From: a virus
Strand: one strand, 5' to 3'
Virus record (IMG/VR): IMGVR_UViG_3300027770_002362
Location: 1-42,809 of that record
Length of the DNA stretch: 42,809 nucleotides
Shown here: positions 21,654 to 26,889 of the stretch, in pieces
Position numbering within the stretch: position 1 is the stretch's first letter
How the letters are laid out: each line of letters starts with the position of its first letter
The notes under the pieces: generated by a model
What the model was told of the DNA's origin: nothing
What the model saw: only the letters and a program-made list of their open reading frames with translations
The model's database searches: none
Made by a program: the position numbers and the translations under genes

Positions 21654-22064
21654 ATGGCATATTCGGAAAAGGTATTAGACCATTATTCTAATCCTAAAAA
21701 TGTGGGAACTTTGGATAAAAGTAAACCAAATGTAGGAACTGGATTGGTAGGAGCACCTGAGTGTGGTGACGTAATGAGATTACAAATTGAAGTAATAGAC
21801 AATATTATTGTTGATGCAAAATTCAAAACCTTTGGATGTGGTTCGGCAATTGCATCATCTTCGGTAGCAACTGAATGGTTGAAAGGTAAAACATTGGATG
21901 AGGCTATTACGATTGATAACATGGATTTGGTTGAAGAATTAAATCTACCACCGGTTAAAATTCACTGTTCGGTTTTAGCAGAAGATGCTATCAAATCGGC
22001 TATTAATGATTATAGAGTAAAGAACGGATTGGAGGAAATAATTTTTGAAGAGTCGCATGTATAA
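21654..22064 (+). CDS. iscU: IscU-type iron-sulfur cluster scaffold
   Basis: Scaffold on which Fe-S clusters are built from cysteine-desulfurase sulfur and iron. The 136-residue protein keeps every hallmark of IscU: C37 in GAPECGD with D39, C62 in TFGCGSAIASSS, C105 in KIHCS, and the LPPVK motif at 98-102 that the HscA chaperone binds in bacterial IscU. N-terminal YSEKVLDHYSNPKNVGTLD is also typical. Length equals cellular IscU within a few residues. It opens a three-gene operon with ferredoxin and IscA carrier genes; there is no cysteine desulfurase (IscS) in the window, so sulfur must come from the host or another phage gene. Intact residues argue for a functional protein. Confidence 0.96.
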   Translation: MAYSEKVLDHYSNPKNVGTLDKSKPNVGTGLVGAPECGDVMRLQIEVIDNIIVDAKFKTFGCGSAIASSSVATEWLKGKTLDEAITIDNMDLVEELNLPPVKIHCSVLAEDAIKSAINDYRVKNGLEEIIFEESHV

Positions 22065-22074
22065 AAAATAAAGT

Positions 22075-22383
22075 ATGAGTTTTATAATTGGAAATAGTTG
22101 TATTGATTGTATGGATACTGCGTGTGCAAGTGCATGTCCAGTAGATTGTATTCACGGACCTATCGATATAGAAGGGTCAGGTGGTGAAATTGAAAGAGAT
22201 GGTAGAGCAGCATTTCCGGGTGGACAAATGTATATCAATCCTGATAGTTGTATCAATTGTGGAGCATGTGTTCCTGAATGTCCTGTTTCTGCTATTTACG
22301 AAGATGAAGATTTGGCAATTAAAGCAGGTGATGAAGCATCGGTACATAAGAACTACGAATTTTTCGGACTAAAATACGCATAA
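22075..22383 (+). CDS. Ferredoxin with two cluster-binding motifs (FdxA-like)
   Basis: Small electron carrier of 102 residues. The N-terminal half has C9, C12, C17, C21 and C25 (SCIDCMDTACASACPVDC), with the same spacing as the 7Fe/8Fe ferredoxin FdxA; the second motif is C59-x2-C62-x2-C65-x3-C69-P. The insert between the motifs (residues 30-52) is longer than in minimal clostridial ferredoxins. In Isc systems a ferredoxin supplies electrons for cluster assembly, usually a 2Fe-2S type; here a bacterial-type ferredoxin takes that position in the operon. Stop and next ATG overlap by one base. Confidence 0.94.
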   Translation: MSFIIGNSCIDCMDTACASACPVDCIHGPIDIEGSGGEIERDGRAAFPGGQMYINPDSCINCGACVPECPVSAIYEDEDLAIKAGDEASVHKNYEFFGLKYA

Positions 22384-22706
22384 TGGTAACAGTATCAGAA
22401 GGTGCAGCAAAAAAACTAAACTCACTTATTGAAGAAAGTGGGTTCAAAACTCCCTTTGTTAGAGTAGCAGTTAAAGGTGGTGGATGTAGTGGATTGTCAT
22501 ACGACCTTTCATTTGATACCGACCAACAAACAGGAGACACTCTTGCAGAAAATAATGGAGTAAAAATATTAATAGATATGAAATCGTTACTTTATCTATT
22601 TGGAACCGAATTAGATTTTTCAGATGGATTAAATGGTAAAGGATTTCAGTTTATAAACCCCAATGCATCCCGTACATGTGGGTGTGGAGAATCTTTCGCA
22701 TTATAG
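22383..22706 (+). CDS. iscA: A-type iron-sulfur carrier (IscA/ErpA-like)
   Basis: Carrier that passes Fe-S clusters from the scaffold to apo-enzymes. The 107-residue protein has the three ligands at the same positions as E. coli IscA: C35 in KGGGCSGLSY, and C99 and C101 in RTCGCGESF near the C-terminus, with the NPNA signature just before. It overlaps the ferredoxin gene by one base, completing a scaffold-ferredoxin-carrier order. Distinguishing IscA, ErpA and SufA by eye is not possible. HesB/IscA-like genes are known in some phages; a linked IscU is rarer as far as I know. Confidence 0.96.
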   Translation: MVTVSEGAAKKLNSLIEESGFKTPFVRVAVKGGGCSGLSYDLSFDTDQQTGDTLAENNGVKILIDMKSLLYLFGTELDFSDGLNGKGFQFINPNASRTCGCGESFAL

Positions 22707-24145: not shown

Positions 24146-25285
24146 ATGATAAAGCTTAAATCATTAATAAATAAATCTTTTTTATTAAAGGAAGATGATA
24201 TCGTCAAAAACAAAAAGACGGGTAATGTATATACTGTACAACAAATGGACCCGAATAAGCACGATAAAGCAACTCCTGATGAGATTGAAAAAACTAAAGC
24301 AAAATCAGGTGGTGTCATTCCAAAAGTAGGACAAGAACCATCTACACCAAAACCAGGTGCTAACCCACAGGCAAAACCTCAACAACCAACGGCACAACCC
24401 GCAGCAGGAGAAAAACCAAAAGCAGGAGAAAAACCAAAAGCACAACCTACACAACCTCAACCAGGAGAAGCACCTCCTCCAGGAAAATTAAGTGGTAAAG
24501 ATTTTCAAAGTTCTGCAGAAAAAAATGTAGAAAAAGAAAAACCACAAAGACCTGGTGCAGATGATATGAAGTTGAAAAACTTAATGCCAGGCATTGATAC
24601 ATCTAAAAAAACATTAGACCAAGCTACACCAATTGAAAGACAAGAAGTAGCAACTAAAATAGATGATTTGGTTGCAATGACCGATAAGGCAAAAGCAAAT
24701 GGTGAAAAACCAGAATTCTTTAATCTTTGTGATGTATCAATTCCAGGGTCAAATATATATTGTGAAGATAATTTAGGTATAGATAGAAACGATATGCCTC
24801 AATTCAAAGGTGATGCAAGACCAGGCTCTCCTGCAGATAAATTACCAAGAGACCCAAGAAATGGTGAAGTAGATACTGAAGAATTTTTTAAGGAAATGTT
24901 AAATAAAGAAGGTATTAAAGTATCCGAACCACAAGCCGTCCCTCCAGATAGATTAAAAGCAACTCAAAAGAATTTAGTAGGTGATAAAGTTGCAGGAATG
25001 TATAAAGGACTTGAAGAAAATCCACAAAACCCAGATTTAACCGCACCTATATATGTTTCCAATGATGGATATGTATTAGACGGACATCATAGATGGGCAG
25101 CGATTGTAGCTTATAACGCTAAAAATCCTGATAAACCAATTGCAATGAATGTAAGAGTTATTGATGAACCAATTAAACCATTAGTAAAGCGTTCAAACGA
25201 ATTCGCAGACCATATTGGTATTGAAAAGAAAGCAGCTAAAGCGGGACAAGGTGCACCCCAACAATCTCCAGAAAAAAAAAAGTAG
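24146..25285 (+). CDS. Pro/Lys-rich protein with ParB/sulfiredoxin-like domain; possible upstream half of a frameshift product
   Basis: A 379-residue protein. Residues 1-40 are a short folded start (IKLKSLINKSFLLKEDDIVK), about 55-140 are a disordered linker rich in Pro, Gln, Lys and Ala with AGEKPKAGEKPKA repeats, and 240-350 form a ParB/Srx-like domain with YVSNDGYVLDGHHRWAAIVA near residue 305, the GHHR motif of this fold (nuclease or nucleotide-binding). Catalysis is not established. The stop codon directly follows A_AAA_AAG; a -1 slip there would join the protein to the next ORF. Comparable ParB-like domains occur in large phages, sometimes in virion or DNA-handling proteins. Confidence 0.85.
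   Translation: MIKLKSLINKSFLLKEDDIVKNKKTGNVYTVQQMDPNKHDKATPDEIEKTKAKSGGVIPKVGQEPSTPKPGANPQAKPQQPTAQPAAGEKPKAGEKPKAQPTQPQPGEAPPPGKLSGKDFQSSAEKNVEKEKPQRPGADDMKLKNLMPGIDTSKKTLDQATPIERQEVATKIDDLVAMTDKAKANGEKPEFFNLCDVSIPGSNIYCEDNLGIDRNDMPQFKGDARPGSPADKLPRDPRNGEVDTEEFFKEMLNKEGIKVSEPQAVPPDRLKATQKNLVGDKVAGMYKGLEENPQNPDLTAPIYVSNDGYVLDGHHRWAAIVAYNAKNPDKPIAMNVRVIDEPIKPLVKRSNEFADHIGIEKKAAKAGQGAPQQSPEKKK
25276..25282 (+). promoter_or_regulatory. Possible -1 ribosomal frameshift site (A_AAA_AAG)
   Basis: The heptamer A AAA AAG sits in the zero frame immediately before the TAG of the ParB-like gene, inside a run of ten A. After a -1 slip the frame reads KKVDTKPSKRVSSEGEE and continues without a stop into the next ORF. 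A stop codon right behind the slippery site is typical of programmed frameshifting; a miscounted A-run is the main alternative. Confidence 0.5.
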
Positions 25286-25326
25286 ATACTAAACCATCCA
25301 AAAGAGTTTCTTCCGAAGGTGAAGAA

Positions 25327-26004
25327 ATGGGAACAATTCAAACTAAAAAAGGTTCAACCATTTTTGGTGTAGAACATGATAACATCGAAGGTGCCAAACA
25401 AGTAGTAGATGATGTTAAAAAAATGTATCCAAAAGATTCTAAAATTGTATTTTTAGGTGAAGGTGGTGATGAAAATAATAAGTATGTTAAAGGTAGTGAG
25501 CAAGAGTATATCCATAACGAACTTAAAAAACATTATCCAAATTTTACAAATGATAGTTGGGATGGTAAGGAATTGGATGTTCATAACGACCAATCGATGT
25601 TATACGATTATCAGAAAAAGAAAACAGGATTACCACATGATGTTGTAATGGCAGGTAATTGGGCTAATATGGTCGGTCAAAATGAAAAACTAAAGGCTGA
25701 AGATTATTTAAGTGATGATGGTAAAAATTTCTTACAACAATCAGCAAAAGAAGCTGGATTTCCTCCTATAAGTAACTTTGATAAACCAAATAAAAGAGAT
25801 ATTCACACATTATATAGATTATCATATCCACAAGATAATGGGGATAAAAAAACCAAAGTTGGTGAATTATCCGATGTGTTTAATGATGCAAGAGATGAGA
25901 ACCTAATTCGTAAAATGAAAAAATATGAAGATAACGGATATACGGTAGTTTCAGCTGCAGGACATGGTCATATAGATTTAATAAAAAACAGAAAACAAAA
26001 ATAA
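25327..26004 (+). CDS. Unknown protein, possibly the -1 frame extension of the preceding gene
   Basis: Taken from the first ATG it is 225 residues, but the frame is open upstream to the slippery site. Motifs include DSKIVFLGEGGDENNKYVKG then SEQEYIHNELKK near residue 38-65 and DENLIRKMKKYEDNGYTVVS with AAGHGHIDLI at the C-terminus. The order G-E-x-H/E early and RDEN...(V)G/A-GHxH late recalls the TraB/ChaN/EreA superfamily of metal-dependent hydrolases, but this is a weak pattern match. The chosen ATG has no convincing ribosome site of its own, which favours translation by frameshift or coupling. No signal peptide. Confidence 0.72.
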   Translation: MGTIQTKKGSTIFGVEHDNIEGAKQVVDDVKKMYPKDSKIVFLGEGGDENNKYVKGSEQEYIHNELKKHYPNFTNDSWDGKELDVHNDQSMLYDYQKKKTGLPHDVVMAGNWANMVGQNEKLKAEDYLSDDGKNFLQQSAKEAGFPPISNFDKPNKRDIHTLYRLSYPQDNGDKKTKVGELSDVFNDARDENLIRKMKKYEDNGYTVVSAAGHGHIDLIKNRKQK

Positions 26005-26031: not shown

Positions 26032-26889
26032 ATGTTGTTAAAAAGAGGTGACAATAACGAAAATGTCAAACAATTACAAACAAAATTAGGTTTAGAAGCA
26101 ATTGGTAACTACGGTCCTAAAACCGAAGATGCAGTAAAAGCATTTCAGTTAAAGAATGGTCTAACTCCAGATGGTATTGTGGGAAATACTACTTGGAATA
26201 AGATTATGGGTATTACGGAAGCAGTTGCTCCAGTAACTCCTGCAGAAGTCTTAACTCCAAAACCAACCCCTGTAACAAATACAACCGGATTAAAATTAGA
26301 TACATTAAAAGGACACATTCCTGATAGTGTTATAGCAATGATTCCAGAAGTAGCATCTAAGTTTGAAATCAACACTCCATTAAGATTAGCACATTTCTTA
26401 GCACAATGTGGACATGAAAGTGGTGGATTCAAATTAACACAAGAAAACTTAAACTATTCAGCTAAAGGATTAAACGGAATATTCAAAAAATATTTCCCAA
26501 CATTAGAATCAGCAGTTCCATACGAAAGAAAACCAGAAAAAATCGCCAACAAAGTATATGGTGGTAGAATGGGTAACGGAGCAGAAGCAAGTGGTGAAGG
26601 TTGGAAGTTTCATGGTAGAGGATTTATTCAATTAACAGGAAAAGAAAATTATACTGCATTCACTAAATCAATTGGTGAAGATTGTATTGCAAACCCTGAT
26701 TTAGTAGCAAGTAAATACGCATTAGCTTCAGCAGCATGGTTCTTTAATAAGAATGGTTTACATAAGATGGCTGATGGTGGTGCAAATGACGATACTGTTA
26801 CAAAAATTACTAAAAGAGTAAATGGTGGAACAATTGGATTACCTGACCGTATCAAACATTTCAAAGAATATTATCATTTGTTGACATAA
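26032..26889 (+). CDS. Endolysin: peptidoglycan-binding domain plus GH19 glycosidase
   Basis: Cell-wall hydrolase for host lysis, 285 residues. Residues 1-62 are a PG_binding_1 domain (LLKRGDNNENVKQLQTKLG ... GPKTEDAVKAFQLKNGL ... GIVGNTTWNKI). A Pro/Thr linker (65-88) leads to a GH19 chitinase/lysozyme domain: AHFLAQCGHESGGFKLTQEN near 120-139 contains the catalytic Glu in HES and the second acidic residue in QEN, and GWKFHGRGFIQLTGKENY near 190-207 is the GH19 signature segment. GH19 endolysins cleave the glycan strands of peptidoglycan. No signal peptide, so it needs a holin; small membrane proteins lie downstream. Confidence 0.94.
   Translation: MLLKRGDNNENVKQLQTKLGLEAIGNYGPKTEDAVKAFQLKNGLTPDGIVGNTTWNKIMGITEAVAPVTPAEVLTPKPTPVTNTTGLKLDTLKGHIPDSVIAMIPEVASKFEINTPLRLAHFLAQCGHESGGFKLTQENLNYSAKGLNGIFKKYFPTLESAVPYERKPEKIANKVYGGRMGNGAEASGEGWKFHGRGFIQLTGKENYTAFTKSIGEDCIANPDLVASKYALASAAWFFNKNGLHKMADGGANDDTVTKITKRVNGGTIGLPDRIKHFKEYYHLLT

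Follow-up and report, generated by a model that had tools for sequence, protein, structure and literature searches.

A conserved run of ten adenines as a probable recoding site giving two proteins from one ParB-like gene of T4-like phages

The closest described parallel to the phage locus reported here is dnaX, in which an A-rich slippery run yields short and long proteins with a shared N-terminus (tau and gamma, made by ribosomal slippage in E. coli and by transcriptional slippage in Thermus). Both polarities of dnaX are known across species, and stops lie nearby in its other frames (PMC5009743). The phage site is alike in these respects, but it belongs to another gene and another biology, no Shine-Dalgarno sequence or hairpin was found at it, both of its polarities occur among close relatives, and the type of C-terminal domain is swapped at the run. 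Phages themselves use -1 frameshifts in structural genes (the tail chaperone pair G/GT, capsid Ig-like extensions), where the frame change adds a minority C-terminal extension to a virion or assembly protein; the G-T tail chaperone frameshift is absent from T4 (PMC5009743). Unlike those cases, the locus described here combines a ParB/Srx-like protein with an enzyme-like domain, in T4-like phages. T4 also provides the third comparison, as its capsid-targeting sequences, short N-terminal leaders of the LxE type, direct internal proteins that are otherwise unrelated into the head (PMC3012670). Our gene resembles these in its putative leader and in the presence of gp21 and gp23 in related genomes, although its domains are different and its proteins are larger. 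Our literature search found no recoding case for this gene. We regard the locus as a known kind of recoding put to a new use; what is unusual is that both polarities in close relatives, domain swapping, and a second site within this phage group occur together.

The window (the whole stretch of viral DNA analysed, 42,809 nucleotides) carries a ParB/Srx-like gene at 24146..25285 (+ strand, as are its parts and the extension described below), recognized from ORF calls, fold matches, and PHROG 2859, whose 0-frame product has 379 amino acids. Its 3' end reads CCA GAA AAA AAA AAG TAG, within the junction sequence ccaGAAAAAAAAAAGTAGATACTAAA. The A10 run occupies 25272..25281 and is the sole run of nine or more A's in the 42.8 kb; the slippery heptamer A_AAA_AAG lies at 25276..25282 in 0-frame phase, and the stop TAG follows at 25283..25285 (codons AAA AAG TAG). 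An X_XXY_YYZ heptamer in the phase of frame 0 is thus overlapped by an open -1 ORF, which spans 25282..26004: it starts from GTA at 25282, runs for 240 codons (VDTKPSKRVSSEGEEMGT...) to base 26001, and stops at 26002-26004. A preliminary description had placed the TAG right behind the heptamer in proper phase and had claimed a stop-free -1 frame of 240 residues, and both statements are exact. In the surroundings, Fe-S cluster assembly genes are found at 21654-22064 and 22383-22706 (a NifU N-terminal domain, E 6.6e-50, and an Fe-S_biosyn domain, E 3.7e-17), and directly downstream, at 26032-26889, lies an endolysin made of a peptidoglycan-binding domain and a GH19 chitinase-type domain.

Our main conclusion, to which we give a probability of roughly 0.87, is that one gene yields two proteins here through programmed recoding at the A10 run. 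The short form would be the leader plus the ParB/Srx-like protein of 379 amino acids, and the long form, of about 619 amino acids, would carry a further alpha/beta domain at its C-terminus. For the window, making this long form would take a net -1 shift at A10-G, either through a ribosome slipping back by one on A_AAA_AAG or through an RNA polymerase adding one A. The possibility of a programmed -1 frameshift, with which the preliminary description began, is supported in substance: conservation, selection, and the occurrence of both polarities argue for a recoding site that joins the two ORFs, while the ribosomal mechanism is not singled out.

Relatives of both halves, the ParB part and the extension, were taken from viral contigs. 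Seven distinct contigs, which derive almost without exception from different metagenomes, share the split arrangement (the window, L001, L002, L003, L004, L010, and L012), and all seven end in EKKK and a stop, written g-A10-g-ta(a/g). Their +1 frame closes within 2-5 codons, and their -1 frame opens into an extension of 240-264 amino acids. With ParB parts between 57% and 98% identical, the site and the -1 ORF are conserved in divergent relatives. Because ten A's stand in the same frame relation in seven contigs of such varied origin, an original with 11 A's, the assembly error that had been considered possible, is very unlikely. In four other viruses (L024, to which L025 is identical, L038, L114, and L127) the genes are fused, with frame 0 reading through A10-G into the extension, the -1 frame stopping after 1-4 codons, and the +1 frame after 0-13. 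One further lineage, represented by two contigs (L128/L129), has the fused polarity by way of A9, again with stops nearby in the other frames. The run counts ten A's in fused and split A10 genes alike; the difference lies in the bases behind it, not in one A. In these relatives of inverted polarity the unshifted frame would give the long form and a slip the short form; the occurrence of both polarities suggests that what selection maintains, as in dnaX, is that both forms are made.

Counted by lineages, which share ancestry and are therefore not independent, the run is kept in 12 of the 13 that combine a small ParB gene with an extension, as A10 in 11 and as A9 in one. The exception, L069, has the split arrangement and no run, with a possible GTG start just after the stop. 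No run was seen in about 25 distinct small ParB relatives that lack an extension, many of which end in PITK and a stop. The case named earlier as one that would count against a frameshift, separate genes in a relative that has no slippery site, is thus limited to L069 among these 13 lineages. The run tracks the combination of small ParB protein and extension whichever frame is long, which points to selection for both products. In many relatives of far greater size, reaching about 1,800 amino acids, a single chain contains both ParB and extension domains, connected by an ordinary linker. The domains also recombine at or near the run: the ParB parts of L001 and L002 are 98% identical, yet their extensions are of different types, and the window is closest to L001/L002 in its ParB part and to L003 in its extension. 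Two other arrangements were observed. The extension domain directly follows a leader or leader-like N-terminus, with no ParB domain, in L033-L037, L055, L067, and L073, and giant proteins of about 1,260-1,760 amino acids (L058, L080, L084, L085, L150-L152, L246, L247) have ParB and/or extension domains and start with a leader, behind which comes a nucleotidyltransferase-like motif, GGRFQPFHKGH.

Long A runs are otherwise avoided in the sampled coding DNA. In our first sample, consisting of the window and 63 relative loci (480 kb), all 11 runs of A10 or longer were at the ParB-extension junction. Synonymous codon shuffling within genes of the coding subset (369 genes, 390 kb) gave an expectation of 30.9 +/- 4.0 such runs against the 11 observed, and the lowest of 100 shuffles still had 23. 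Among 40 tetrapeptides of the form [EQK]KKK, 11 were written A10-G, equal to the number of junction sites. AAG makes up 22.6% of Lys codons in the ParB-like gene, yet all 11 A10 lineages use it as their last Lys codon; other invariant residues keep one codon throughout in 11 of 105 cases. The restriction of A10 to this one junction holds for the first 64-locus sample but not beyond it, as loci collected later have such runs in the gene upstream of gp21, in L258/L259/L260/L262, and in L275.

A second site of the recoding type lies in the gene that immediately precedes gp21. In five of seven large related contigs this gene ends in KKK or KKKK and a stop, written on A10 or A11, and is followed by a -1 ORF of 133-138 amino acids with a hydrophobic segment; the remaining two have neither. 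A survey anchored on gp21 widened this count to 18 distinct contigs (12 with A10 and 6 with A11: L306-L315, L317, L318, L320, L331, L221, L223, L224, and L226) with -1 ORFs of 133-139 amino acids, and about 11 contigs in that survey had neither run nor extension. A homopolymer of about nine or more, A9-A11, is thus kept at both loci against genome-wide avoidance. In L324 (2086-2095) and L332 (2077-2086) an in-frame A10 joins a MIKLKSLLIE leader directly to the membrane-type extension of the gp21-upstream gene, and in L326 the same leader is joined to it through A9. These runs may be a portable, polarity-indifferent C-terminal switch on the leader-bearing head proteins of these T4-like phages, with the long product read in either frame, C-terminal domains swapped at the run, and the ratio of isoforms in the virion set in this way by at least two genes, the ParB-like one and the one upstream of gp21, which would gain a membrane-type segment; we put this broader proposal forward tentatively, at somewhat less than even odds.

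Other A10 runs were seen as well. L258, L259, L260, and L262 have a conserved one (1990-1999) within a gene immediately preceding the ParB-like one; it is read through in frame 0, and the other frames soon reach stops. We considered homology between the C-terminal part of the L258 protein and the gp21-upstream membrane module and dropped it at an identity of 14-17%. An unrelated phage gene family (L185, L186, L197, L202, L211, L212) has A10-G as a candidate recoding site, with a frame 0 that closes after 28 codons and a -1 frame that stays open for about 151-155. In still other viruses (L191, L194, L208, L209, L215) A10-GTA brings an immediate 0-frame stop, with -1 ORFs of 110-436 codons; L208 resembles a tail chaperone pair.

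The extension is under purifying selection, with dN/dS between split relatives of 0.08-0.20 at dS up to about 1.4, and this argues that it is translated. Its structure model is of high confidence (pLDDT 94.6) and has an alpha/beta fold, perhaps EreA/TraB-like. The matches found were weak: PF01963 (TraB/PrgY/GumN) by sequence at E 0.05, the erythromycin esterase EreC by fold at Z 5.5 over 155 residues with unrelated entries ranking higher, and, also by fold, histidine phosphatases. A PDB sequence search gave no credible match, and no homologue of the extension was found in the cultured phages or prokaryote genomes searched. Residues H31, E59, and H229 are invariant, in favour of a hydrolase (EreA/ChaN/TraB-like). 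The extension had been called hydrolase-like from the outset; a conserved, selected domain is indeed present, while the enzymatic label, drawn from weak fold and sequence matches, is a guess.

Residues about 254-365 of the first-half model (pLDDT 75) match ParB, Noc, sulfiredoxin, and SerK, the informative fold matches (best Z 6.5, Foldseek E 0.06), corresponding to a ParB/Srx-like domain at 24905..25234 with the motif DGHHRW; the DGHHR-like motif is invariant. The gene matches PHROG 2859 (E 1.8e-20), a family of unknown function. The phage protein differs from the ParB/sulfiredoxin superfamily in that a Pfam search with its ParB part gave no credible match and no DNA-binding or dimer part was identified in it. 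At the N-terminus, 24146..24193 encodes a putative leader, MIKLKSLINKSFLLKE, that resembles a T4 capsid-targeting sequence with an LxE site. Small ParB relatives have leaders of the MIKLKSLLKE type with LxE near residues 8-16. LxE is the cleavage rule for gp21, and the gp21 prohead protease (PF03420) and the gp23 capsid protein were each present in seven of seven large related contigs; gp23 was not found in the window contig itself. A leader with the gp21-type (L/I)xE end is thus found in the small ParB proteins, and gp21 in the large related contigs. Because of the T4-like leader and the gp21 and gp23 of related genomes, we infer that the product of the ParB-like gene is probably an internal virion protein, and one probably ejected into the host. 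Packaging in the head by way of the leader is most likely, and in that case the slip rate would fix the proportion in which the two forms reach the host.

Whether the ribosome or the RNA polymerase would slip is about equally balanced, and the two are not exclusive. Slippage of the polymerase on the A run, giving mRNAs with an extra A and leaving the ribosome uninvolved, has an even chance. Nine to 11 A's are kept at both loci, a bare heptamer is never seen, and the gp21-upstream site retains its long run even where the last G of the heptamer is lost (L317, L223, L318); long A runs are avoided elsewhere, and the nearby stops in the other frames are like those of Thermus thermophilus dnaX (PMC5009743). 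Polymerase slippage has no need, however, for the AAG end, kept in all 11 A10 lineages against codon bias, or for the conserved phase of the heptamer, and a 0-frame stop immediately behind the run, as in the split genes, is seen more typically where ribosomes slip. Only slightly less probable is the second route, in which the ribosome shifts by -1 on A_AAA_AAG in the classical way and slippage of the polymerase plays a negligible part. The exact heptamer, its phase, the immediate stop, and the conservation of AAG at the window locus favour it, as does its standing in E. coli, where, given stimulators, A_AAA_AAG is one of the best-performing -1 motifs (PMC4066793). Against it, the run exceeds what a heptamer needs, the heptamer end is lost in L128 and in some gp21-upstream sites, and neither of the features that most efficient ribosomal sites have, a stem-loop or a Shine-Dalgarno sequence, was found, an absence that also favours the polymerase. 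When the 40, 80, and 120 nt of RNA downstream of the site were folded for 12 sequences, nearly all had z values close to 0 and no consistent signal emerged, so that the RNA structure for which the preliminary description had proposed to look is not conserved across them; no Shine-Dalgarno-like stimulator was seen upstream. A TTTCTTC/GAAGAAA hairpin was rejected as a stimulator, as it starts about 25 nt downstream in type A extensions and is missing in type B. A search for tRNA genes in the window found none.

It is improbable that the two ORFs are simply separate proteins, with an incidental A run and with coupled re-initiation at a start of the extension's own, in the window ATG 25327. Such a start is available, since this ATG lies 42 bases 3' of the TAG, preceded by an AAGGTG-like sequence, and the other type A split genes share it, at codon index 15 of the extension; the earlier statement that the second ORF has no good start is to that extent qualified. 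The same ATG falls inside the conserved domain, however, downstream of Gly12, which is conserved in more than 90% of relatives. L001 and L010 have instead a GTG two codons after the run, and L012 has no ATG, GTG, or TTG before codon index 35, which is beyond the conserved core motif of the extension. Given these differences in start codons, recoding is the sole explanation that fits all of them. L069 may really use its own start, and proteins that join leader and extension without ParB do exist, but separate translation would leave unexplained both the retention of the run in either polarity and the finding of all A10 runs of the first sample at the junction. A sequencing or assembly error in one plain 11-A gene, or a decaying pseudogene left as a broken remnant, is very unlikely despite the error-prone nature of homopolymers and the existence of fused relatives, given ten A's in seven split contigs with both TAG and TAA stops and different extension types, ten A's in the fused relatives too, with differences behind the run, and the low dN/dS of the extension; the observation is real.

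Recoding at the A10 run would have consequences for how these phages are annotated and understood. Ordinary gene calling truncates the proteins at the run and overlooks the long form. The locus would offer a dnaX-like system found in nature, with both polarities in close relatives and without visible RNA stimulators, and counts of A's in its mRNA could tell the ribosome from the polymerase. If our reading of the leader is true, the phage would tune, by slippage, the mixture of proteins that it carries into its host.
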